A stretch of 64,000 nt of DNA from Desulfuromonadaceae bacterium (GTDB lineage Bacteria > Desulfobacterota > Desulfuromonadia > Geobacterales > Pseudopelobacteraceae), in contig JAQTQX010000024.1 of assembly GCA_028712075.1 (NCBI GenBank), forward strand, positions 1 to 64,000. The letters are read 5' to 3'. Under the pieces are notes generated by a model. That model searched no databases and was not told the DNA's origin. It saw nothing but the letters and a program-made list of their open reading frames with translations. This document shows positions 7,674 to 64,000 of the stretch, piece by piece (the stretch's first letter is position 1; each line of letters starts with the position of its first letter). Made by a program: the position numbers and the translations under genes.

Positions 7674-7748
7674 AGGCGCGTAGCTCAGCGGGAGAGCGCT
7701 ACCCTGACACGGTAGAGGTCGGCGGTTCGACACCGCCCGCGCCTACCA
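7674..7748 (+). tRNA. tRNA-Val (GAC)
   Basis: A 75-nt cloverleaf. The acceptor stem AGGCGCG pairs with CGCGCCT, followed by discriminator A and an encoded CCA. The D arm is GCTC/GAGC. The anticodon stem CTACC/GGTAG closes the loop CTGACAC with anticodon GAC. The T arm is GGCGG-TTCGACA-CCGCC. All stems pair fully. Confidence 0.97.
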
Positions 7749-10587: not shown

Positions 10588-10665
10588 TGCATAATGCCAA
10601 GAACCATGAGGAAATTGTCTCCCCTTATGGATCTGGCCAATTCAGCAACGAAGGAGTAGTGACGT

Positions 10666-26832: not shown

Positions 26833-27126
26833 TTATTTCTTTTTCTTTGCACCAGCAGCTTTTTTGGAAGCTTTTAGCGGATTGACCTTGGCGTCATCAA
26901 CCTTGATTTCAATCTTTACGTGGGAGGCAAAGTTACATATTCCGCCGATCCACTTTTTGGCTGGAGCTGGGTACGCGCTGCAGACCTGACCTATAGTGCC
27001 GGTAACTACGCGCTCACATCCCTCACAGTTTTCTACAATAGTCTGGCAGGAACCATCAGGGAATATACACCCCTGTTTTCCCCAAAAGGTACACTCGGTA
27101 CCTGCAAGTACAGTCTGACACTTCAT
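26833..27126 (-). CDS. PxxKW-family cysteine-rich protein
   Basis: A small 97-aa protein found mainly in deltaproteobacteria; function unknown. It has eight or so cysteines in the first 65 residues (C-Q-T...[10 protein letters not shown]...CQ...CEGC...C), the PAKKW signature, and a C-terminal Lys/Ala-rich tail. The cysteine pattern suggests a bound metal or Fe-S cluster, but no cluster motif is certain. Start 27126 follows AGGAGGAAG; a longer upstream frame lacks an RBS. Confidence 0.8.
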
Positions 27127-27236
27127 ACTTCTTCCTCCTGAATTTGTTCTCGAATGAACCGCCACTGTAACAATTCTTGACTCGGAAAGTCAACGGAAAA
27201 AATGAAGGGAAATAAGACGGCTTGGAGTCGTTAACG

Positions 27237-27815
27237 CTAGAGTTGACCGCTACTGATGGTGATAAAATTCCTGAACAGATCCATTCCTCCTTCAGTCAGG
27301 ATTGATTCCGGGTGAAACTGTACTCCCCATATCGGAAATTCCTTATGCCGCAATCCCATAATCTCACCATTTTCAACCCACGCGGTTACCTCCAGACAGT
27401 CGGGTAGGGTGGGGCGGTCAACAATTAGGGAATGATAACGGGTAGCCATGAACGGATTCGTCAATCCGGCAAACAGATCTTGCCCATTATGAATAATTGG
27501 AGAGGTTTTGCCGTGCATAAGGGATGAACTGCGAAGCACCGTGCCTCCAAAAGCATAACCGATGGACTGATGTCCAAGACAGACCCCCAAAATAGGGATT
27601 CTGCCGGCAAAATATCTGATTGCGGTGACGGAGACCCCTGCTTCTTCCGGTGTACAGGGGCCGGGGGAAATGACAAGGCGTGCGGGATGAAGGGCTTCAA
27701 TTTCTGCCAGTGTGATTTGATCATTCCGGCGTACTAGGACGTTCTCACCCAATTGTCCAAAATATTGGACAATATTAAACGTGAACGAATCGTAGTTATC
27801 GATCATCAGTAACAT
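27237..27815 (-). CDS. trpG: Anthranilate synthase component II (glutamine amidotransferase)
   Basis: Glutaminase subunit that supplies ammonia to TrpE. The 192-aa class I amidotransferase has the nucleophile elbow GVCLGHQ and the catalytic His-Glu in FHPESI. It follows trpE with a one-base gap, so it may also serve p-aminobenzoate synthesis as PabA. The rest of the trp pathway is not in the window. Confidence 0.93.
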
Positions 27816-27816
27816 G

Positions 27817-29292
27817 TCAGATTAAGCCTTTCTCTGCGATTTCAACTGCTTTCATAACAGCCATTCCTTTGTTGACGGTTTCCTGCCACTCGGTTGCCGG
27901 ATCTGAATCTGCAACAATACCGGCACCGGCCTGGAGATGAATTTTTCCATCCTTTATCACAAGAGTGCGAATTGCTATAGCGAGGTCCATATTTCCTGAA
28001 AAAGAAAAGTAACCTACTGCACCACCATAAATTTCGCGACGTACCGGTTCAAGTTCATCAATAATTTGCATGGCACGGACTTTCGGGGCACCTGATAACG
28101 TGCCTGCCGGAAACGTTGCCCGGACGAGATCAAAAGCATCATGGCCAGCAGATAATTGTCCTTGAACGTTGGAAACGATGTGCATGACATGGGAATAACG
28201 TTCAATAACCATCAGTTCCGAAACCTTGACGGAACCGGTTGTACACACACGTCCCAAATCATTTCTACCGAGGTCTACAAGCATTACGTGTTCGGCGCAT
28301 TCTTTCGGATCAGCGAGCAGTTCAGTCGAAAGCATAGCGTCCTCTTTTGCAGTTGCGCCACGGGGGCGGGTACCGGCTATGGGACGTAACTCAACTCGAC
28401 CCCCTTCTTTACGAACCAGAACCTCCGGAGAAGCACCGACAATGACCGTGTCATCAAGACGCAGAAAAAACATGTATGGTGATGGATTAAGCGTTCGTAG
28501 TACCCGATAGATGTCAAACGGATCAGCGGTAAGTTCTCCGCTGAAACGTTGCGAAAGGACAACCTGTATGATATCTCCTGATCGCACGTATTCTTTGGCC
28601 TGCTCGACGGACTTTTCAAAAGTATCACGGGTCATATTTGAGGTGAACTGAACAGACTTTTCCCTTATGGGTACCTGTTGCACTGGTAATGGTGCACGTA
28701 ACCGGCTGATAATATCATCAATTTTTTCGAGTGCGCGAGAGTATGCTTCGGAAGGAGCAATGCTATCGGTTATATGGGCATTTGAAACAACCTTTATTTT
28801 TTGGCGCATGGTATCGAATATGATAATTGTATCAGTAATGAAGAAGTACGAATCATATCCATCGAGTAGTGCCGGCTTGTCAGTTGGCAATTTTTCAAAA
28901 TAACGAACCATGTCATAACCAAGATACCCGACGGCCCCGCCAAAAAAACGAGGTAGACCATCTATCTCAACGGGGGAAAATTTCGAGAGAAGTTCTTTAA
29001 TGCAGGCAAGCGGATCAGAAACTTCTTGCGAAGCCAGAATCCCGTCAGTTACCGTTTCTACTAGGTTCCCCTTTGATCGGATAATGACTGAAGGAGTTGA
29101 ACCGAGGAAGCTGTATCTTCCCCATTTTTCTCCTCCTTCAATGCTTTCAAGGAGATAGGAAAATTGCCCGTCGTCAAGTTTTCTAAAGGCTGAAACAGGC
29201 GTGTCCATGTCTGCCATGATTTCTCGGTAGACCGGAATGAGGTTGCCTTTTTCAGCAAGGGTATAAAATGTGTCACGTGAAGGAAAAAACAT
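27817..29292 (-). CDS. trpE: Anthranilate synthase component I
   Basis: Converts chorismate and ammonia to anthranilate. 491 aa with the N-terminal LLES tryptophan-feedback motif (YLLESIEGG), and the C-terminal chorismate-binding core ([32 protein letters not shown]). The ATG at 29292 has TTGAGGT before it; a TTG four codons earlier is the alternative. Order larE-trpE-trpG. It draws on the same chorismate pool as MqnA. Confidence 0.95.
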
Positions 29293-29336
29293 TGCGTACC
29301 TCAAAATTGTTACTTCAATAGCGTCTGCATAGTTTA

Positions 29337-30143
29337 TTAAGTTGCTTCATTCATTGCCCCGGTACGGTACTCCTGCAGGTCAAGAGCCACATAGGTAAAG
29401 CCGGCCATTTTAACTAATCTGACTACTTCGTTCCTTAGAATTCCAACGGCGCTCTCAAATTCCTGGCTCCCTAATTCAATTCTGGCGACAGTTCCATGAT
29501 AGCGTACCCGCACTGTCCGGAATCCAAGTAAACGGAGTGACTCTTCAGCCTGACCGACCTGATCGACCCGTTCCGTGGTAATGGCAGTGCCGTATGGGAA
29601 GCGACTGGAGAGACAGGCAAAGGCAGGTTTGTCCCAAGTCGGCAACTCCATAAATCGGGAGAGATCACGGATATCCTGCTTGGTGAAACCAGCTTCTTCC
29701 AGTGGGCTGCGCACCGCCAGTTCGTTTGCCGCTGTTCGTCCAGGGCGGTGATCATTTTTGTCATCCACATTGGTTCCGTCCAGTACGTAGCTAATTCTTT
29801 CCTGATTTGCAATTAGTCTCAGTTTGTTAAAAAGTTCCTTCTTACAGAAATAGCATCGGTTGCGAGGATTGTCACGAAACTCAGGAATCTCAAGTTCTTC
29901 GGAAACAATTACTATGTGCCGTCCTCCAAGTTTTTCAGCAACCAATCGAGCATCATGTAATTCGCGTTCGGGATAAGTCTTTGACGTTGCCGTAACAGCA
30001 ACAGCTTGATTACCTAATACCTCTACCGCTACCGCAAACAGCAGGGTGGAATCAACTCCACCAGAAAATCCGATAACACAGCCTTCCATTTCACCCAGAA
30101 TTGCTCGGAGTTTGTAGACTTTTTCCTGAAATGATGCGTTCAT
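29337..30143 (-). CDS. larE: LarE-type ATP-dependent sacrificial sulfur transferase
   Basis: PP-loop ATPase that builds the nickel-pincer cofactor of lactate racemase in characterised cases, giving sulfur from its own cysteine or an Fe-S cluster. The 268-aa protein has the PP-loop GFSGGVDST, then RNRCYFCKKEL with the cysteine pair, DGTNVDD, and P-A-F-A-C-L-S-S-R. Three cysteines in the CYFC..C(L)SS pattern match the cluster-bearing LarE form. No larA, larB or larC is visible nearby. Placed 45 bp before trpE. Confidence 0.85.
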   Translation of the reverse strand: MNASFQEKVYKLRAILGEMEGCVIGFSGGVDSTLLFAVAVEVLGNQAVAVTATSKTYPERELHDARLVAEKLGGRHIVIVSEELEIPEFRDNPRNRCYFCKKELFNKLRLIANQERISYVLDGTNVDDKNDHRPGRTAANELAVRSPLEEAGFTKQDIRDLSRFMELPTWDKPAFACLSSRFPYGTAITTERVDQVGQAEESLRLLGFRTVRVRYHGTVARIELGSQEFESAVGILRNEVVRLVKMAGFTYVALDLQEYRTGAMNEAT

Positions 30144-30357
30144 GCGGAGGGTTTTCCATTCGGTTCAAAAATAGGTTTATTAGTATCTCTGCTGTTGAAT
30201 ATACTGGTATCAGTTCAGCGTGGTCAACTGAAAAGCCTCTTGCGTCCGTTGATTAAATTCATTGATGTAGATTTCTGCTTGCATAATATTTTGAATAGGC
30301 AGAAAATCACAGTTAGTCGATTAGTAGACGGTATCGAGGTATGAGGAGGTGAGACAA

Positions 30358-30675
30358 ATGGCAAGTGCTTTTATGTCCCCAAGCAGTGTTTTGGCAACTC
30401 CTATTCAGGTTAACCCGCAGGTTGTAACGGACCTTCAGACGTCGATGCCGCAGGTTTCTCAGGATGCCCAGAAGGTTGCAAAAGCAGAGAAAACGGATAC
30501 TATAACTATTTCAGCTCAGGCGCTAAAGATGGCTGATAGTAAGGATATTGATTCAAAAGCCGCTGACAAAAAGGCGAGAGAGCAGGAAACAGCGAACAGC
30601 GAAGCCGTTTCAGCAAAGAACGATGCTCAAAGGAGTGCAGTCAAAGCCTACGCGTCTGTGGAGGCGATGCAGTAA
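30358..30675 (+). CDS. Small hypothetical protein with DTITISAQ motif
   Basis: No family recognised. 105 residues, rich in Ala, Lys, Gln, Ser and Asp with no membrane segment or cysteine. A central DTITISAQALKMA motif also occurs in the convergent gene at 30813-31253 and resembles motifs in flagellar accessory proteins (FlgM, FlaG-like). The second half is a predicted charged helix. Start 30358 follows AGGAGG; a GTG at 30349 is in frame but too close to it. It ends 22 bases before a 23-bp hairpin. Confidence 0.7.
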   Translation: MASAFMSPSSVLATPIQVNPQVVTDLQTSMPQVSQDAQKVAKAEKTDTITISAQALKMADSKDIDSKAADKKAREQETANSEAVSAKNDAQRSAVKAYASVEAMQ

Positions 30676-30697
30676 CTGACGAGTTAAACTTGGTGAG

Positions 30698-30747
30698 GCA
30701 AAACGGCAAGAGGAGTCCGGGTTACCGGGCTCCTCTTGCCGTTTTGC
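30698..30747. terminator. 23-bp stem hairpin between two convergent small genes
   Basis: Eighteen bp of perfect stem (GCAAAACGGCAAGAGGAG / CTCCTCTTGCCGTTTTGC), one T-G wobble and four more bp of CCGG close a GTTA loop. A/T tracts lie at both ends of the stem, so it can serve as a terminator in either direction for the genes at 30358 (+) and 30813 (-). Confidence 0.85.
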
Positions 30748-30812
30748 TTACTGCACACAAACATAACACAAATGACGATACTGCTTAAATACATTACACA
30801 GGGTCTGCGTTG

Positions 30813-31253
30813 CTATATTTTCAAGTCCACCGATAAATCTGATTTCGGAGCGTACTCCCTCATGCGTAACATGAGTTGTGAAGGAACTTGATATATTAGC
30901 TTCTTGGCGTTATCCATATACTTGACAATCAGTTCACCTTGCTGATCATAAATAAACTCAACCGAGGGCGCAGACACTGCGTTCCCGTTGTTTTTAACTG
31001 CATTATTGCTGTTTTCCCCATCTTTTTTATCAATCCTCTCATCTCGTTGCATCGAAACTGCTTCTGCCTGTTGTGACTGAGCGGAAATTGTTACGGTATC
31101 ACCGGAAACAGGCGGGTTTTTCCTGGCAGGAGCCGCAACTGCACTAGAAGCACCAACCCCATTGTCTCCTTTTTGGGACGAACCAGACTCAACGGAAAAA
31201 TTGACCGATTGAGCTTGAGTCATATCTGGTATCTCTAGCGATGCCACTTCCAT
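30813..31253 (-). CDS. FlaG-like small protein with DTVTISAQ motif
   Basis: 146 aa. The N-terminal half is low-complexity and holds GDTVTISAQSQQ. The C-terminal half (V-E-F-I-Y-D-Q-Q-G-E-L-I-V-K-Y-M-D...YQVPSQLML) is like the FlaG family, where the fold ends in I-P-x-E-x-(M/L)-L. FlaG proteins influence flagellar filament length, but no flagellar genes are visible here. It converges on the 30358 gene across the 23-bp hairpin. Confidence 0.65.
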   Translation of the reverse strand: MEVASLEIPDMTQAQSVNFSVESGSSQKGDNGVGASSAVAAPARKNPPVSGDTVTISAQSQQAEAVSMQRDERIDKKDGENSNNAVKNNGNAVSAPSVEFIYDQQGELIVKYMDNAKKLIYQVPSQLMLRMREYAPKSDLSVDLKI

Positions 31254-31671
31254 CTCCTCATGCTACGGCAAGTAACAGCTAATCCTACAACTACCCTTGT
31301 GACATGGTAACTCTTACCATACAATTTTTCAATAAAAAACAAAGTGTAGTAAAGGGCCTGCAGGTGGTGCCCGGTAGACTTATCAGCACATAATTATTAA
31401 CGACCATCTACTGAGCGAGCGATGTGGCGGGAACCGGTCAGAACAAATGAAATAATATACAACGATGTGCTAAATATGCTATTAAAAACACCCTTGAACA
31501 AGGTAAATCGCCATCAGAGTCCTAAATAGCTGTTTATGAGAGAACGTGCCTGTATGAAGTTAGAAACAGATATCTGTCCAGAGCCCGCCCAAATTCTATG
31601 TGCAATAATAACTGACAAGAGTTGGTAATAACGGGTGAGTGTCGCGTAGTGATGCTATTGAGGTATCAGTA
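31254..31671. other. Intergenic region upstream of dxs
   Basis: A 418-bp stretch between the divergent FlaG-like gene (-) and dxs (+). It must contain both promoters. I see no clear -10/-35 pair, no thiamine riboswitch core and no convincing ORF; the short frame near 31553 (24 codons) has no similarity I can name. Confidence 0.5.
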
Positions 31672-33537
31672 ATGTTGTTGGAAACAATAAATTCACCGCT
31701 AGATCTTAAAAAACTACGGCCGGAACAGTTGCCGGATCTTGCCTCGGAAATTCGCTCGTTTCTTTTGCAGACTGTTTCTGCAACTGGTGGTCATCTTGGT
31801 TCAAACCTAGGAACTGTTGAGTTGTCTATTGCCCTGCACTACTGTTTTGACTCTCCTAATGATAAAATAATCTGGGACGTCGGGCATCAAGCCTACACCC
31901 ATAAAATCCTTACCGGACGACGCGAGCAGTTCCATACCCAGCGCCAGTACAAGGGTATATCCGGCTTCCCAAAACGAAGTGAATCAGATCATGATGCCTT
32001 TGGTGTCGGTCACTCATCCACCTCAATCTCGGCTGGACTTGGCATGGCCGCGGCCGCTGGACTTGACGGCAAACGAAATCATTCTATTGCCGTTATCGGT
32101 GATGGTTCCCTCACCGGTGGAATGGCTTTTGAAGCGCTGAACCAGGCCGGACATCTCAAAAAAAACCTCATAGTGATCCTGAACGACAATGAAATGTCGA
32201 TTTCTAAAAACGTTGGGGCTTTCTCTACATTTGTCTCCCGAAAGATGACGGGTCGGTACTACCGTGACTTGAAAAAAGAAATACAGGTATTGCTGAAAAA
32301 CATCCCTGCATTTGGTACGGACATCTTACATTTTGCCCGTCGTGCTGAAAACTCTCTCAAAGGTTTTCTCACCCCCGGAGCATTGTTCGAAGCACTTGGC
32401 TTCGATTATCTCGGCCCTCTTGACGGGCATGACTTGTCGCAACTGGTTGAAGTGTTTAATAATATTAACGAATTAGATGGACCGCTGCTGGTGCATGTTA
32501 TGACAACGAAGGGGAAAGGGTACAAACCTGCCGAAGAGACACCGGCCAAATATCACGGTGTTGGCGTTTTTGATGTTGCCACCGGCAAAGGAACTGTCAA
32601 AACGGCAGTGAAATCCTATACGGACCTGTTTGGTGAGACACTGGTACAGTTGGCCGCAGAAGATGACAAAATAATTGCCATTACTGCTGCCATGCCTGAT
32701 GGAACCGGTCTTAATCAATTTTCCCAGCGTTTCCCGGAGCGTTTTTTTGATGTCGGCATTGCCGAACAGCATGCCATTACATTTGCTGCAGGACTTGCGG
32801 CAGACGGTTTCAGGCCGGTAGCGGCAATTTATTCGACATTTCTTCAACGGGCTTATGATCAGATATTTCATGACATCTGTCTGCAAAACCTGCCGGTAAC
32901 CATTGCCATGGATCGTGCGGGCTTGGTTGGTGATGATGGCCCGACCCACCACGGTGTTTTTGACCTTTCCTATTTACGCCACCTGCCTGGCATAACGTTA
33001 ATGGCCCCAAAAGATGAAAATGAGTTGCGCCATCTGCTTAAAACTGCCGTTTATTCGGGACTCCCGATTGCGATCCGCTATCCGAGAGGGTCAGGATATG
33101 GCGTCGAGCTTGATCGTGACCTGCATTGTGTTGAAATAGGAAAGGGCGAACAGCTTCTTGATGGATGCGATCTGACATTGCTCGCTATTGGAACTACTGT
33201 GTATCCGGCGCTGCAGGCGGCTGAATCACTCAGACTCAAGGGGATTTCCGCCGGTGTAGTCAATGCCCGATTTGTTAAACCGCTTGATGCGGAACTTATT
33301 TTGAATGTAGCCCGCCGGATCGGCAACATACTGACGATAGAGGAAAATGTGCTTCAGGGCGGTTTTGGCAGTGCGGTTCTGGAACTGCTGTACGATCAGG
33401 GTTTACAGAATGTGAAGATGAAACGCCTTGGCCTTCCTGACCACTTTATCGAACAGGGGAGTCAGGCCCAACTGCGCAAGGATGTTGGAATCGATGCGGA
33501 GGGGATTGTTGCTGCTACAATTGAATTTATGAAATGA
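31672..33537 (+). CDS. dxs: 1-deoxy-D-xylulose-5-phosphate synthase
   Basis: Thiamine-diphosphate enzyme that condenses pyruvate with glyceraldehyde 3-phosphate, the entry to the MEP isoprenoid pathway (and a supply for thiamine and pyridoxal). Signatures: [13 protein letters not shown], the ThDP motif [15 protein letters not shown], and [16 protein letters not shown] choose the ATG at 31672 preceded by GAGGT; an upstream GTG at 31639 would add 11 residues without RBS. 621 aa. First gene of dxs-pyrF-rlmB. Confidence 0.95.
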
Positions 33538-33544
33538 GGTCTTT

Positions 33545-34267
33545 ATGACGTTAGAGTACGCCCGAAAAAAAATCATATTTGCTCTGGATGTTCATGGCCT
33601 GGATGACATTGACCGATGGGTCGAAGCGTTGGCTGGCAAGGTGGGGATGTTCAAGGTTGGCAAGGAGTTGTTCACTTCCTGTGGGCCGGCAGCAGTCAAA
33701 GCTGTGCAGCGATTCGGCGGCCAGGTCTTTCTCGATCTGAAATATCATGACATTCCGAACACCGTTGCACATGCAATGCTTGAGGCTGCACGTCTTGGCG
33801 TGCAGGTGGCCAATTTGCACGCTCTGGGCGGCGCTGAGATGATGGAAAATACAGTTGCGTTACTGCATAAGGAGTTTGGCAATGATCGTCCGAAGCTGCT
33901 TGCCGTCACCATCCTGACCTCCTCCACCGAGGAAACACTGCGCGGTGTTGGCATAGAACATCCGGTACAGGATATGGTGGTGCGCCTGGCAAAGCTTGCT
34001 CAAAATTCCGGCATGGACGGGGTTGTTGCTTCGCCGCTCGAAATCAGTCTGATACGTGCGGCATGCGGTCCCGACTTCCTGATCGTCACGCCCGGTGTGC
34101 GCCCCGGTTTTGCTGCGCTTGATGACCAGAAACGGATTATGACTCCGGCAGAAGCGGTAAAAAATGGCGCCGATTATCTGGTGATTGGCAGACCGATCGC
34201 CAAAGCGGACGATCCACGGACTGCGGCGGATCTTATTGCTGATGAAATTGTGATGGGGTGCAAATGA
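33545..34267 (+). CDS. pyrF: Orotidine 5'-phosphate decarboxylase
   Basis: Final step of UMP synthesis. 240 aa TIM barrel with the catalytic Asp-Lys-Asp in FLDLKYHDIPNT and the phosphate-binding GVRPG. It starts 7 bp after dxs and overlaps rlmB by 4 bp (ATGA). Confidence 0.95.
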   Translation: MTLEYARKKIIFALDVHGLDDIDRWVEALAGKVGMFKVGKELFTSCGPAAVKAVQRFGGQVFLDLKYHDIPNTVAHAMLEAARLGVQVANLHALGGAEMMENTVALLHKEFGNDRPKLLAVTILTSSTEETLRGVGIEHPVQDMVVRLAKLAQNSGMDGVVASPLEISLIRAACGPDFLIVTPGVRPGFAALDDQKRIMTPAEAVKNGADYLVIGRPIAKADDPRTAADLIADEIVMGCK

Positions 34268-34998
34268 AAGGCGAGCTGATCTTCGGTGTTAATCCGGTCA
34301 AGGAATCTTTGCAGGGTACGCGTTGCGCCTTCAACTTGTACGTGCAACTCAATGCCAGTGACCATCGCGTGGAAAAGATCATCAGACTTGCCGAACAGCG
34401 TGGTGTAGCGGTTCATCGTCGTGAAAAAAATGATCTGACCAAAATGTGCGCCTCGTCCCATCATCAAGGGATCGCTCTTGAAGTCGAACCGTTTCGTTTT
34501 GCCGACCTAGATGACCTTCTCGTCGCCACAGCGGAGGCAACAACAGGATTATTGCTTGTGCTCGACGGCATTCAGGATCCGCACAATCTGGGTGCCCTTA
34601 TCAGAAGTGCTGCCTGTGCCGGAGCCAATGGCGTTATCATTCCAAAGGACCGTGCCTGTGGTGTCACTGCCGCTGCTGAACGATCATCAGCCGGTGCAGT
34701 GGAGATAATTCCGGTGACGCAAGTGATCAACATAGCCCATACGCTGGAAATGCTGAAAAAACGGGGGTACTGGATCTACGCTTTGGATGGTGAGGCTTCC
34801 ACGTCATTATTTGCGACAAAATTTTCCGGCAAGACCGTTCTGGTAATCGGCAGTGAAGGTGAGGGGATACGTCCTCTGGTCAGAAAACAGTGCGATGTTG
34901 TAATGTCGATACCGCACTATGGCGGCGTCAGTTCTTTAAACGCCTCGGTAGCCGGCGGGATTGCGATGTTTGAGGTGGCGAGAAATATCAACAGATGA
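34264..34998 (+). CDS. rlmB: 23S rRNA (guanosine-2'-O-)-methyltransferase RlmB
   Basis: SpoU-family (SPOUT) methyltransferase, expected to methylate G2251 of 23S rRNA. 244 aa: N-terminal substrate-binding domain (about 1-75) and the knotted C-terminal domain with LDGIQDPHNLGALIRSA, VIGSEGEGI and the last motif SSLNASVA. The ATG at 34264 overlaps the pyrF stop. Confidence 0.9.
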   Translation: MKGELIFGVNPVKESLQGTRCAFNLYVQLNASDHRVEKIIRLAEQRGVAVHRREKNDLTKMCASSHHQGIALEVEPFRFADLDDLLVATAEATTGLLLVLDGIQDPHNLGALIRSAACAGANGVIIPKDRACGVTAAAERSSAGAVEIIPVTQVINIAHTLEMLKKRGYWIYALDGEASTSLFATKFSGKTVLVIGSEGEGIRPLVRKQCDVVMSIPHYGGVSSLNASVAGGIAMFEVARNINR

Positions 34999-35028
34999 GA
35001 CGTGCGGTGGCCGAAAGAAGACGGGTGG

Positions 35029-36213
35029 TCAGTAAATCCGGCTTTGAAAATGGTTGTCATCAAATATTCGGAAGTATTCATCCCGGCACCAGTTTTCAAC
35101 ATCAATCAATGCCTGAAACGCATCTTTAAAACCATGCCGGCCAATGGCAAATACCCCGTGTCCATAGACGAGCGCCCTACAAGATACTCCAATAACCGGC
35201 GGTACATTCTTGGCGATTCCCCCCGCACCAATCTCTCCCGCCACTATCGGAGTGCCCCCGGCCATGCGGATTTTTTTGCAATCCCTCCAGCAGTCAGTAA
35301 CTCCACATATGTCCTGTTCATCACAGAGCATGCTTATCACGACTGAAAAACGGGGGTGGCCGTGCAGTATGGCGCGACAGCCCGTCTGCTCGAAAATTTC
35401 GCGATGTGCCACCAATTCGCTTGAGGCGGTAATTCCGACGGTTGAGCTGTTCTCGAATGGGACAGGGTCAATGCAGCTGTGCAATTCATCTAGGCTTGAG
35501 GCTGTCTGGGAGATATAAATCAAATCGTTGTGACGGTAGGAGATGTTGCCAAAAAACGAGTCAACCAGACCTCTTTGGACAGTATAACGTCCGACAGTGA
35601 CAATTTCATCAAGAATAGCTGCTTTGTCATCAACGGGACCTTCGCGGAACTGAAGCCCTTCGGTGGTCAGTGGTAGCAGCCACTCAGTGCGAAAACGGTA
35701 AAATGCTTCTTCCTCTCCAGGCAGCATGAAGCCGTGCTGAAGAACATCCTCCAGATATTTTATAAACGTGGAATGAAATATCGATGACCAGTTTATGTAG
35801 GCCTGTTCAACCGTCAGTGTGCCGCTGGCAATGATGCCCAGCCCTTCGACGACCACCCCTTTGCGGCTACCCAGCAGGAAGGCAATTGTTTCAGGCGGAT
35901 TACCGCCGAATTCAGAAATGCGCAGGATCGGTATGTCGTGCAGGAAGGTACGGGTTTCAGTGTCCCGGGGGACTATTTCCTGTTCATGCACCGAAGCTCT
36001 TTGAATGAGGAAATCGGCAAAAGGAAGCGAGGGGGCTGCAGCGGCAACAGCGAGACAATTCAGACGTGAAAGTATTGCTTCCGACAGTAAGGCCAGATGG
36101 GGATCACCACCTGATATCATGACATCATCCTGCGCAGCAAAGGCAATTTTTATTGCAGATGCTGAGCGATCCGCAACCATTTTTGACATGTATTTTGTTA
36201 TCTGATCTCGCAT
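35029..36213 (-). CDS. Class II aldolase/adducin family protein with two domains
   Basis: The C-terminal half (about residues 205-385) is a complete class II aldolase domain: GNISYRH, the Glu in SSELVAH, the zinc His pair HGHP, and a third His in YGHGVFAIG, so it should bind metal and may cleave or epimerise a phosphorylated sugar. The first half looks like a degenerate copy that keeps G-V-V-V-E-G-L-G-I-I-A-S-G-T-L but lacks the His ligands. Substrate unknown; it could work in a salvage pathway. It overlaps the stop of the M23 gene (TGATG), so the two are probably co-transcribed. Length 394 aa, about twice a single-domain aldolase. Confidence 0.8.
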   Translation of the reverse strand: MRDQITKYMSKMVADRSASAIKIAFAAQDDVMISGGDPHLALLSEAILSRLNCLAVAAAAPSLPFADFLIQRASVHEQEIVPRDTETRTFLHDIPILRISEFGGNPPETIAFLLGSRKGVVVEGLGIIASGTLTVEQAYINWSSIFHSTFIKYLEDVLQHGFMLPGEEEAFYRFRTEWLLPLTTEGLQFREGPVDDKAAILDEIVTVGRYTVQRGLVDSFFGNISYRHNDLIYISQTASSLDELHSCIDPVPFENSSTVGITASSELVAHREIFEQTGCRAILHGHPRFSVVISMLCDEQDICGVTDCWRDCKKIRMAGGTPIVAGEIGAGGIAKNVPPVIGVSCRALVYGHGVFAIGRHGFKDAFQALIDVENWCRDEYFRIFDDNHFQSRIY

Positions 36214-37082
36214 CAGGGAAATGACGGAGGAATGTTGGTGAACAGGATGGAGCCGTCTGAAAGGGCTTCACTCCTGAAGCGTTGCATTTTTTGATTGCTG
36301 ACAACAAGAATTTTCGGCAGGGCCACGCCATTATCGGTGAGGAATGCTGAGGTAATATTGCTTCCCGCCTGCCACGCTTCAAAGTGGAGATGCGGTCCAG
36401 ATGACCTACCGGTAGAACCGGAAAGTGCCAGGGTGCTCTCGGCTGTAACAAGCTTCCCTTCGGTCGCCATAATCCGACTGTTGTGCGCGTAGAGTGTTTT
36501 TATTCCGTTATCATGTTCAACAACGACAGTGTTGCCATAGCCAGAACGGCTGCCGCAGTATACAACAACACCGGGAGCAACCGGCTTTACGGGTGTTCCG
36601 GCGGGGATCGCAATATCAACACCGTTGTGCTGGCGCCAGACCCCGTCAAACGGGTCGATTCTCATGCCGACAGTTCCGGTTATCGTCCCACCGACAACCG
36701 GCAGGTGTTCTGTAATGGTACCCTGATCGGTACCGTTGGTATTAAGAGATGCAGAAACTGTTTTCTGCACAATTTCATCAAGGGAAATGGGGTGAGTTTT
36801 CTGTTTTCGTTGTGATTTACGCTGCTTTTTGGAATAATCAACCTGCTCCTTGATAATTACCTGAGCACTTTTGTCACTGGGGACGTCGGTGAATGATTCA
36901 ACACCATCAATCGTGACAAACCGGTATATATCGGCTTCTGCACACGGACAGAGCAGGAACGTGAGCAAAAGCAAGGGCATCAGGTGCCGGCAAGAGGTGA
37001 CACGCTTCCGCCTGAAACACACTTTGGCATGCGTAGTCAATTGTGCTTGTTGTTCAACGTCTTTTCTGATACTTAATTCCAT
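36213..37082 (-). CDS. Exported M23-family peptidase with DUF4124 domain
   Basis: Probable murein endopeptidase (LytM/M23 fold). After a signal-like stretch (MPLLLLTFLLCPCAEA) comes a DUF4124-type segment (D-I-Y-R-F-V-T-I-D-G-V-E-S-F-T-D-V-P), a Lys-rich linker, and a C-terminal M23 domain with HNGVDIAIPAGTPV (His, Asp zinc ligands) and SSGPHLHFE (HxH). The third ligand and catalytic His seem present. The start at 37082 gives 34 residues before the hydrophobic segment; the ATG at 36980 would give a more usual signal peptide but has no RBS. Total 289 aa from the upstream ATG. Confidence 0.8.
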   Translation of the reverse strand: MELSIRKDVEQQAQLTTHAKVCFRRKRVTSCRHLMPLLLLTFLLCPCAEADIYRFVTIDGVESFTDVPSDKSAQVIIKEQVDYSKKQRKSQRKQKTHPISLDEIVQKTVSASLNTNGTDQGTITEHLPVVGGTITGTVGMRIDPFDGVWRQHNGVDIAIPAGTPVKPVAPGVVVYCGSRSGYGNTVVVEHDNGIKTLYAHNSRIMATEGKLVTAESTLALSGSTGRSSGPHLHFEAWQAGSNITSAFLTDNGVALPKILVVSNQKMQRFRSEALSDGSILFTNIPPSFP

Positions 37083-37141
37083 ACTCCACGTATATCGTAT
37101 TTCATCAATTAGTTCAATTCATCATCTTCGAGGTGTCAGAA

Positions 37142-37858
37142 GTGTTCCAATATTTCGACAAAATCGTTCGCGGGACCGAACGGGAGGACATGCTGGTGAT
37201 TGCGCAGTCTCTCAAGGATATGGTCGGAAATAAATTCCCGTTATTAAACTATTACAAAGAAATTCCGGTTTCATACGATGCAACGTTATTGAATATTGAA
37301 AACGAAATGGCAGAGTTTTCTGTCCATGAGTATCAGGCCAAGGTTATCAGTATTGAAAGACAGGCACTTATTGATTCCGCTTTTCTGAAAACACTCCCCG
37401 AGAGTATCTATGGTGAGGCGTTTTATGTGAGTTCTGCAAAGAAAAGAATCATACTGAATAATTTTGGCTATGCTCGGATCCGATCTGGAATGAGGCGGTT
37501 CGTTCGCGTTGTTCTCGATGTTCCTATTGAAGCAGAGATAATATGTGAAGGGGACATATTAAAGGGCGAAGTTATGGATATTTCAATTGGAGGCGCTGCG
37601 ATTACCACTGCACCAACTGAATTCCTGGTTCCCGGACTCAATATAAATATGATCTTAAAGCTGCCCAATGTAACGGGTAATACCACTGTTGAAGTTGGTT
37701 TGGGTGCGACGATTGTAAAAGTTATTGACACTGCGGCGCCGTATACCTGTTTGATTGAATTCAACCCTGAAAAACATTCACAGCAACAAATTTCCCAATA
37801 TATCAACCGGCGTCAAATAGAGATAATCAAGGAACTCAAAGATGTAAACTGTAGTTAG
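37142..37858 (+). CDS. PilZ-domain protein
   Basis: Likely c-di-GMP receptor. The C-terminal half carries the PilZ pattern: basic RRFVRV (RxxxR-type loop), then E-V-M-D-I-S-I-G-G-A-A (D/NxSxxG motif). The N-terminal half (about 1-110) has no recognisable domain but resembles YcgR-like N-domains. The GTG at 37142 has GAGGT seven bases upstream and gives 238 aa; the GTG at 37133 is in frame but lies inside the RBS. It diverges from the M23 gene. Confidence 0.8.
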   Translation: MFQYFDKIVRGTEREDMLVIAQSLKDMVGNKFPLLNYYKEIPVSYDATLLNIENEMAEFSVHEYQAKVISIERQALIDSAFLKTLPESIYGEAFYVSSAKKRIILNNFGYARIRSGMRRFVRVVLDVPIEAEIICEGDILKGEVMDISIGGAAITTAPTEFLVPGLNINMILKLPNVTGNTTVEVGLGATIVKVIDTAAPYTCLIEFNPEKHSQQQISQYINRRQIEIIKELKDVNCS

Positions 37859-51199: not shown

Positions 51200-51276
51200 C
51201 GGTGCGTAGCGCAGCCTGGTAGCGCACTAGACTGGGGGTCTAGTGGTCGCAAGTTCAAATCTTGTCGCACCGACCA
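51200..51276 (+). tRNA. tRNA-Pro (GGG)
   Basis: 77-nt cloverleaf. Acceptor CGGTGCG/CGCACCG with discriminator A and encoded CCA, D arm GCGC/GCGC with GCCTGGTA in the loop, anticodon stem CTAGA/TCTAG around CTGGGGG (anticodon GGG), T stem GCAAG/CTTGT with one G-T pair. Confidence 0.96.
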
Positions 51277-61873: not shown

Positions 61874-64000
61874 TCAGCCTGCAAGCTGCGCTTCAAGTTT
61901 TGCAATTTTTTCCAGCAATTCGTGTTCGATTTTCTTTGCCGCAGTGATGTCAATGCAGGTAATCACCACGCCATCAATTACCTTGTCCATGGTGCGGTAC
62001 GGCATGATCCGTACGATAAAAATGCGACCGTCATGGGTTAGCACTATGTTTTCCACCGAAATCAGTTTTCTGAGTACATCCTGTACGTGGTCATACAACT
62101 GGGGATAGTTTAGATCCGAGACAATATCTGTCAATGGCCTCCCCACATCGCTGGGGATCAGCTTGAACAGTCTGTTTGCTCCTGTGGTATAGCGTCGTAC
62201 CTGCAGATGAATATCCAGGAAAACGGTGACGATTTCGGTGCTGTTCAGCAGATTCTCCATGTCGTTGTTGACCCGTATATACTCATCCAGCCTGGTGGAC
62301 TGTTCAGCGTTTACGGACTGCAGCTCCTCATTCATGGACTGCATTTCTTCTTTTGAGGTGGTCAGCTCTTCGTTGGTTGACTGCAACTCTTCATTGGTTG
62401 ACTGGAGTTCCTCATTGGTGGATTTCAGCTCTTCGTGGGTGGTCTGCATCTCCTCACGGATTGTTCGTGTCTCTTCACGGGATTTCAGCAGTTCCTGTTC
62501 AAGCTCTTCAACCAGCTTGCTATCGGGAAGCATTCCGGTCTTTCTGCGACGTGCCTTTGGCAGGAGTGACACATCCTTAAAGACAATCATCACCATGCCA
62601 CGTAACGCTTCAGGTTCTTCGATCCTCATAAACATCATGTCTACGGTCTGTGTGTAGTTATGAGCGTCTACAAGACGACCCCGCACCGCGACTGGTTCAT
62701 GCTGCTGCAACGCTTTGCTGAAGGCAGTACCCAACTCATAGCGCAGCCCTTCCCGAACCATGGCAAAAATATTCATATTGGCTTTGCCTGCCGCAGGTTC
62801 AAGGTACTTGCCCGTTTTCCCGCTGATGTAGACAACGTCCCCTTGGTCTGTAGCCAATACCGTCGGTGCCGAGCAATGCTGAAGGATGAAATTGTCAGCC
62901 AGTTGTTGAATGTTGTCGGCTGATTTAAGCATAAGGGACTCCTGTGGCAATGATGCTTGAGAGTTGGATATGAAGGAGGATGGAAATGAAATGGAGTTGG
63001 CTCGTAATAATAAATTATTACGCCAGTAAAGCTTTGATCTGTTATGTGTGGGTAAAAAAAGTTCGCTCTGGGAGCCAATGGTCTCGGCACTTCCCAGAAA
63101 GAGCAGGCCTCCCGATTTCAGACTGAAGTGGAACAGCGGCATCAGCTTTTTCTGCAGTTCTGTGGAAAGGTAAATCAGAAGGTTGCGGCAGATCAGAATG
63201 TCAAGTTTGGTAAATGGTGGATCCATGACCACGTTCTGCTGGGCAAAGGTGACCATTTCACGGATCTCCTCGCGTATCAGATACTTGTTGTCTTCTTTGA
63301 TAAAAAACCGCTGTAGCCGCTCAGGTGAGACATTATCTTCGATAGCGGCGTAATAGAGTCCCCTCCGAGCCTTTCCAACGGCATCGGCATCCAGATCGGT
63401 GGCAAAGATCTGAAGAGTGTAGTCACCTGGCAGTATGGGTTGATCCAGGGCTTCCGTGAACGACATGGCTAAAGAATAGGCTTCCTCACCTGTTGAACAG
63501 CCGCATGACCAGGCTCTTAAAGCCCCACCATCGGGATACGCTTCCAGGATCTTCGGCAGGGCTTCGCTCTTCAGCTCCTCCCACATGGCAGGATCCCGGA
63601 AGAAGCTGGTTACACCGATCAGTAGCTCCTTGAAGAGCAGATCCACTTCATGGCTGTTTTTTTGAATGAATTTGGCATATTTGGCGATGGAATCGATTTT
63701 GTGGATCGACATCCTCCTCTCGATGCGGCGATAGAGTGAGGTGGGTTTGTAGAGTGAAAAGTCGTGCCTGGTTTTGGCTTTGAGCAGGGTGGTTATTTTT
63801 TCAAAACTGCTCTGTTCATTATCTCGAAGATCCTGTTCGTTTTTCAAGCGGGGAGTGGCACAGCCAAGAAAATCAATGATCCGTGCAGGCAGCTCCTCTG
63901 CCGGGGCAACGATGTCAACCAGTCCGGCATCAATTGCACTTCTGGGCATACTGTCGAACTTGGCAGATGCTGGCTCCTGCGCCAGCGTCAAACCACCTTG
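61874..64000 (-). CDS. CheB-CheR-PAS fusion protein (5' end beyond the window)
   Basis: About 708 visible residues, open at the window edge. The first residues (G-G-L-T-L-A-Q-E-P...M-P-R-S-A) are the end of a CheB methylesterase. A CheR methyltransferase follows: N-domain (about 65-145), then the SAM site W-S-C-G-C-S-T-G-E-E-A-Y, N-V-V-M-D-P-P-F and D-I-L-I-C-R-N-L-L-I-Y. Then come a PAS-like domain, a long coiled coil of repeated S-T-N-E-E-L-Q heptads (21-bp tandem repeats in the DNA near 62364-62450), and a final PAS domain. Likely regulates the nearby receptors by methylation. Confidence 0.9.
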   Translation of the reverse strand, partial: QGGLTLAQEPASAKFDSMPRSAIDAGLVDIVAPAEELPARIIDFLGCATPRLKNEQDLRDNEQSSFEKITTLLKAKTRHDFSLYKPTSLYRRIERRMSIHKIDSIAKYAKFIQKNSHEVDLLFKELLIGVTSFFRDPAMWEELKSEALPKILEAYPDGGALRAWSCGCSTGEEAYSLAMSFTEALDQPILPGDYTLQIFATDLDADAVGKARRGLYYAAIEDNVSPERLQRFFIKEDNKYLIREEIREMVTFAQQNVVMDPPFTKLDILICRNLLIYLSTELQKKLMPLFHFSLKSGGLLFLGSAETIGSQSELFLPTHNRSKLYWRNNLLLRANSISFPSSFISNSQASLPQESLMLKSADNIQQLADNFILQHCSAPTVLATDQGDVVYISGKTGKYLEPAAGKANMNIFAMVREGLRYELGTAFSKALQQHEPVAVRGRLVDAHNYTQTVDMMFMRIEEPEALRGMVMIVFKDVSLLPKARRRKTGMLPDSKLVEELEQELLKSREETRTIREEMQTTHEELKSTNEELQSTNEELQSTNEELTTSKEEMQSMNEELQSVNAEQSTRLDEYIRVNNDMENLLNSTEIVTVFLDIHLQVRRYTTGANRLFKLIPSDVGRPLTDIVSDLNYPQLYDHVQDVLRKLISVENIVLTHDGRIFIVRIMPYRTMDKVIDGVVITCIDITAAKKIEHELLEKIAKLEAQLAG

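Follow-up and report, generated by a model that had tools for sequence, protein, structure and literature searches.

FlaG and FlgM are the described proteins closest to the gene pair reported here. In C. jejuni, according to one report (PMC12445086), FlaG is a secreted protein that competes with FliS for FlhA and limits the length of the filament, and FlgM is given as a late flagellar export substrate in two others (PMC9307174, PMC13344023). We studied two small genes, here called P1 and P2, in a window of 64,000 nucleotides (the whole stretch of DNA analysed) from a Desulfuromonadaceae bacterium, whose genome (4.15 Mb, 53 contigs) has FlhA, FlgM and flagellin-like genes. The pair joins FlaG-like proteins that carry a FlgM-type segment with a new small partner family. 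Our tentative reading, to which we give slightly less than an even chance, is that P1 and P2 are a late-flagellar accessory pair of Geobacterales, in which P2 is a divergent FlaG and the motif common to both is a portable docking element of the FlgM type. It is supported by homology, conservation of the motif, recurrent pairing, modularity, a statistical link with flagella and the sigma-28-like promoters of paralogues. Among the open PubMed Central matches listed, no paper describes the P1-P2 pair, and DTVTIS as text likewise gave none.

The gene pair in the window

P1 occupies 30358..30675 on the forward strand (105 aa, with ATG at 30358 and a stop codon that ends at 30675), and P2 occupies 30813..31253 on the reverse strand (146 aa). 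The start of P2 is more likely GTG 31247, six bases past the ATG, because a GAGGAG directly abuts that ATG. In-frame motif search and conservation in relatives place DTITISAQA of P1 at 30496..30522 (forward strand) and DTVTISAQS of P2 at 31074..31100 (reverse strand). The sequence-only reading had described small convergent genes with the same motif on either side of a 23-bp stem, and at the positions that it gave we recovered the two ORFs, the motif in each and the inverted repeat.

Upstream of P1, a Shine-Dalgarno sequence, GAGGAGGTGA, can be read at 30343-30352 (forward strand), preceded at 30278..30307 on the same strand by a promoter-like box of the CTTGCATAAC..GGATAAGCAGAGAAT type that is conserved in the upstream regions of convergent-type P1 relatives and is not a sigma-28-like site. 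This box was rejected as the mark of a wider regulon: at up to 3 mismatches it has 7 matches in 58 genomes, all just upstream of P1, the window's own copy exceeding that limit. For P2, a promoter scan proposed a sigma-70-like promoter at 31304..31332 (reverse strand), where relatives have a similar conserved stretch; shuffled sequence yields sites of this type at least as often as the region does. The top-scoring sigma-54 sites upstream of P1 or P2 likewise do not rise above shuffles.

The structure predicted for P1 is of low confidence in the N-terminal half, and past the motif it consists of a long charged helix (residues 53-104). Across 22 chosen P1 relatives, T48, S52 and A55 never vary, and D47, T50 and I51 hardly do. 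Pfam gave no match to P1 and NCBIfam no convincing one; PHROGs returned weak matches of no known function for P1 and one P3 (a related protein described below), and none for P2. Searches of solved structures were made with alignments of P1 (A1, 22 of 36 sequences) and P2 (A2, 19 of 20), and neither gave a significant match.

The 137 bases between the genes hold a hairpin at 30698..30747 whose 23-bp arms (30698-30720 and 30725-30747) are 96% complementary, with an A-rich 5′ end and a T-rich 3′ end. Among the 13 short-range inverted repeats that a scan listed in the window this one is the longest, and its RNA is predicted to fold at -53.5 kcal/mol on the forward strand (z -9.8) and -45.8 kcal/mol on the reverse strand (z -8.5), a shuffle comparison that covers the window's own gap. 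All 18 convergent gaps that were folded, several of them from close relatives, form a long hairpin that is A-rich at one end and T-rich at the other. The relatives often have AAAAAGAGGAAACC...GGTTTCCTCTTTTT; the sequence in the window is different. In its long stem, its end composition and its position between convergent genes in 18 gaps, the element resembles a bidirectional intrinsic terminator. By contrast, the stem in the window is long for one (23 bp) and was not picked up by the terminator scan, probably because the T run lies inside the stem. Judging from these sequence features, the hairpin is probably an ordinary bidirectional intrinsic terminator that serves both genes.

The ten proteins encoded from 26836 to 37855 belong to no flagellar family, which counts against a flagellar role for the pair. 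One protein about 6 kb from the pair has a PilZ domain (37133-37855). Elsewhere, the window contains an L20-Deltaproteobacteria ribosomal protein leader (10595-10656), tRNA-Val at 7674, tRNA-Pro at 51200 and, within a long reverse-strand ORF, a short array of 21/63-base repeats (62315-62456).

Recurrent pairing and the P3 proteins

Seventy-four non-redundant P1-like genes were collected, a sample with bias. P2 is convergent at 17 of them and follows in tandem (P1>P2) at another 17; 12 genes stand in tandem after P3 (P3>P1), and 28, including 2 at contig edges, have no recognised partner. A divergent or upstream P2 was found at none of the 74. The 17 tandem loci are of mixed origin: nine (L050, L064, L179-L182, L184, L244, L245) were taken by place after matches of both proteins or of a paralogue, the P2 search supplied two (L039, L040) and the remaining six were P1 search results. 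One tandem P1-P2 pair, on contig C5, belongs to the same genome as the window.

The named relatives are Geobacteraceae and Desulfuromonadaceae assemblies, Trichlorobacter and Geomonas. At the 21 best-matching of 43 named loci, all of the convergent type, P2 faces P1 in 13 (once as a broken remnant), one locus is cut by a contig end, and P2 is missing at 7, an absence that weighs against the flagellar pair. None of eight genes neighbouring the window pair was found in the flanks of these 21 loci, of which up to 6 kb per side was covered. The surroundings thus differ between loci, and P1 and P2 stay together as a pair. The pairing on which the sequence-only reading had remarked is therefore real and recurrent, but the two genes converge across a hairpin in just one of three layouts, and the stem is likely a terminator.

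P3, found in Trichlorobacter and other relatives, has a motif of the DSVTLSSTALDMSKAL type, followed by a different C-terminal part, YPPFMGNsxELkxLKxxSPALYREiLrMIvPPP (L188, L189, L192, L140, L144, L253), to which Pfam and NCBIfam gave no convincing match.

The FlaG-like core of P2

A profile of 19 P2 proteins aligns over 39 columns with one built from 11 canonical FlaG proteins (hhalign 82.5%, E 9.8e-6); in the window this core corresponds to 30852..30965 on the reverse strand. The P1 and P3 profiles gave no alignment of note with canonical FlaG (E 0.69 and 0.38). In the AlphaFold model of P2 the core consists of three strands and a helix with good local confidence, within a model that is poor overall (pLDDT 59). 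Fold searches with this low-confidence model (Foldseek, VIA) returned weak matches, and no row shown named FlaG.

Several results are less favourable to the flagellar pair. P2 scores 21 bits against the Pfam FlaG family (PF03646), below the cut-off of 23.8, and 5 of its 19 relatives reach E 0.1. A search of 58 relatives with the same family put none above the cut-off and one at E 0.001. The DxVxIS motif is also missing from all 30 high-scoring canonical FlaG proteins of the phylum. These 30 are the top-scoring of 127 genomes with a match, and a strict pattern kept 11 of them for the FlaG profile.

P2 resembles FlaG in its C-terminal core, which has a VxVxD...IxQxP-type pattern. It differs in its sub-threshold Pfam score, its pairing with P1, the position of the window locus outside flagellar genes and the N-terminal FlgM-type motif. 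On balance, the sequence comparisons support P2 as a putative divergent FlaG whose C-terminal core is conserved.

Distribution of the shared motif

The pattern D.[VI].[IVL]S is kept in 72 of the 74 P1-like genes, and D.[VI].[IVFL]S in all 14 convergent P2 relatives that are full-length, another 3 being truncated. In convergent P2 relatives this form is retained while the remaining N-terminus drifts. Tandem P2 proteins show a trace of the motif in just 3 of 17 cases, and their P1 partners retain it.

The sequence-only reading had proposed a genome search for DTVTIS as the mark of a regulon, an idea that the results do not bear out. The exact form DT[IV]TIS occurs in frame at four sites in the genome: P1, P2, a P1 paralogue on the chemotaxis side and an Ig-like domain of the hook-cap protein FlgD. 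A relaxed DNA pattern has 17 matches in the genome, compared with 11 in a reversed control, and 9 of the 17 are in frame. These nine include P1, the chemotaxis-side paralogue with a weaker relative, and a small rod/hook-like protein; the others are one small protein and four further proteins, of which a class II aldolase is the one identified. The motif by itself is not specific and does not mark a regulon. The same reading would have been undermined by a motif common in unrelated cytosolic proteins; looser forms do occur elsewhere, in at least one ordinary enzyme.

The rod/hook-like protein is a stand-alone protein of 97 aa (L204, G000:C45:240214 region, 1330-1620) in which the two ends of a rod protein, Flg_bb_rod and Flg_bbr_C, are both present; DTVDISREA opens its Flg_bbr_C part.

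Likeness to FlgM

FlgM proteins of the same order have a similar segment, DRVEISPQAKELQ or DNVSISAEA. Across a set of 34 FlgM sequences, the full D.[VI].[IVL]S is present in 13 and the shorter [VI]x[IVL]Sxx[AGS] in 24. The profiles of P1, P1d, P3 and P2 each align with FlgM at one common position, with E-values of 4.5e-4, 3.1e-4, 3.8e-4 and 0.014, compared with 0.0041, 0.012, 0.037 and 0.05 for the best of 40 column shuffles, respectively. The FlaG profile aligns to FlgM at another place (E 0.13). Three small relatives weakly match the N-terminal half of the NCBIfam FlgM model, below its cut-off (E 0.0036, 0.016 and 0.026).

The D-x-V-x-[IL]-S-x-x-A segment of P1, P2 and P3 thus has a counterpart in FlgM (PF04316, TIGR03824), but the C-terminal FlgM domain was not detected in P1, P2 or the P3 tested. 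PF04316 matches neither P1 nor P2, none of the 22 A1 or 19 A2 members and not the P3 tested, so there is no sign of the C-terminal FlgM domain or its helices in P1 and P2. A further difference is that FlgM of this genome reads VDLSPDS and lacks the aspartate, a point against the flagellar pair, as is the rate of just 13 in 34 for the full form in FlgM.

The motif might instead be the signal for export through the flagellar type III system, with P1, P2, P3 and FlgM as late substrates whose segment is read by the gate or a chaperone. The cited papers present FlgM as a late substrate (PMC9307174, PMC13344023) and C. jejuni FlaG as secreted (PMC12445086), and the shorter form of the segment in 24 of 34 FlgM sequences fits such a signal. 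However, all 30 canonical FlaG proteins lack the motif, the secreted C. jejuni FlaG not being among those 30, and the motif lies about 50 residues into the protein, not at the extreme N-terminus. We consider an export signal unlikely.

The FlgM segment that matches the motif is presumably its contact with sigma-28. If the motif made this contact in P1, P2 and P3, they would control how much FliA is free, either as partial anti-sigma factors or as decoys. The alignment of the profiles at the FlgM segment and the weak NCBIfam matches of the three small relatives are consistent with this role, but the failure of PF04316 to find P1 or P2 and the lack of any sign of the C-terminal FlgM helices argue against it, and it appears distinctly unlikely.

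Link with flagella

The reading of P1 and P2 as a flagellar accessory pair also draws on their distribution. P1-like genes occur in 60 of 66 FlhA-positive genomes of the family versus 3 of 10 FlhA-negative ones (nominal p 7e-5), and counts limited to the better assemblies give 42 of 46 versus 2 of 7 (p 8e-4); these p-values are nominal because the genomes are related, and the cross-counts were tallied by hand from the listed rows. By sequence search, P1 was detected in 32 of 58 relatives (30 of 45 FlhA-positive versus 2 of 13 FlhA-negative) and P2 in 23 (23 of 45 versus 0 of 13). The restriction of P2 to FlhA-positive relatives is a further likeness to FlaG.

Three FlhA-negative family genomes carry a P1-like gene, which tells against the flagellar pair. 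In one (G028) the motif has decayed, another (G040) nevertheless has FlgM and the third (G268) is 53% complete. The G028 gene (L059 8028-8336) reads VTVIVS at the motif, and neither FlhA nor FlgM was detected in that genome.

Promoters separate the arrangements. A sigma-28-like site (score of at least 10 of 12) precedes 10 of 17 tandem P1 genes versus 6 of 472 control ORFs. The controls, some of which are spurious, comprise every other ORF of at least 200 aa at these loci that has an ATG close to its start. One of the ten tandem genes is the C5 paralogue of this genome (TAAA-N15-TCCGATAA), and 8 of 32 other P1-like genes without P2 also have such a site. A promoter like TAAA-N15-GCCGATAA with a score of at least 10 was found at none of 25 convergent-type P1 genes (17 with P2, 8 without), the window's included, and this absence is another mark against the flagellar pair. 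For comparison, the same score is reached by 1 of 3 flagellin-like genes of this genome and by 5 of 16 FlgM upstream regions, some of which belong to a wrong ORF. The gene starts behind all promoter counts were pattern-based guesses, a few of them wrong. Given that convergent P1 genes lack a sigma-28-like site and have a conserved box of their own, we infer that the window pair has probably left sigma-28 control.

The suggestion of the sequence-only reading that the two proteins are linked to the flagellum gains from the FlaG core, the co-occurrence with FlhA, the sigma-28-like promoters of tandem loci and the FlgM segment, but the window pair itself lies outside any flagellar cluster.

Chemotaxis-side relatives

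A P1 paralogue lies directly after CheW, with chemotaxis genes on the same strand, in this genome and in one relative (L051, G000:C18, 4289-4621; L055 7978-8199). In this genome it stands between CheW and MCP genes, and its C-terminus resembles an MCP signalling tail by eye, with no Pfam match. A protein of 71 aa with DTVSIS (L178, G000:C47, 7444-7656) has CheW-CZB and CheR genes on either side and lies close to an MCP that contains a hemerythrin domain. It is a weak P1 relative (E 4.9e-4) outside the 74.

Proteins of the P1/P2 type could accordingly serve chemotaxis arrays rather than the filament, as the position of the paralogue in both genomes and of the weaker motif-bearing protein would suggest. 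However, the partner P2 has a FlaG core, and most other neighbourhoods read by eye contain no run of chemotaxis genes, which makes this role improbable. Chance likeness between two low-complexity proteins is highly improbable and already disfavoured: a cruder ungapped BLOSUM score of P1 against P2 was matched by 15 of 400 shuffles (its top segment lying off the motif, on another diagonal) and unrelated proteins also hold the relaxed motif, but none of 300 shuffles passed 6 identities in a common 8-mer, where P1 and P2 have 7, and the motif is conserved in relatives of both genes, which is stronger evidence than the shuffles.

Proposed role

Under the reading of P1 and P2 as a late-flagellar accessory pair, P2 would use its C-terminal core to dock onto FlhA, a protein of the export gate, and would tune the export of flagellin, and hence filament length, by analogy with C. 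jejuni FlaG. The D-x-V-x-I-S-x-x-A segment would act as a portable docking element of the FlgM type; it precedes the FlaG core in P2 and another C-terminal domain in P3, and is carried by P1 as a small free protein. P1 may bind the same partner as the segment of P2 and so modulate P2. A partner in common with FlgM could be FliA, FliS or the gate. The docking partner, the export of P1 and P2 and their effect on filament length are all proposed here by analogy.

A more specific form of this idea, which we regard as rather unlikely, is that Geobacterales use the FlgM docking segment as a portable tag on a FlaG core, on the P3 domain or on free P1, and that the tagged proteins compete with FlgM for one late-flagellar partner, which would couple filament growth to the release of sigma-28.

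Since neither Pfam nor NCBIfam matches them convincingly, P1 and the C-terminal part of P3 qualify as candidate new families, and small unannotated proteins of Geobacter-like bacteria gain a testable role. Control of filament length through FlaG and the sigma-28 checkpoint through FlgM might have a common docking site.
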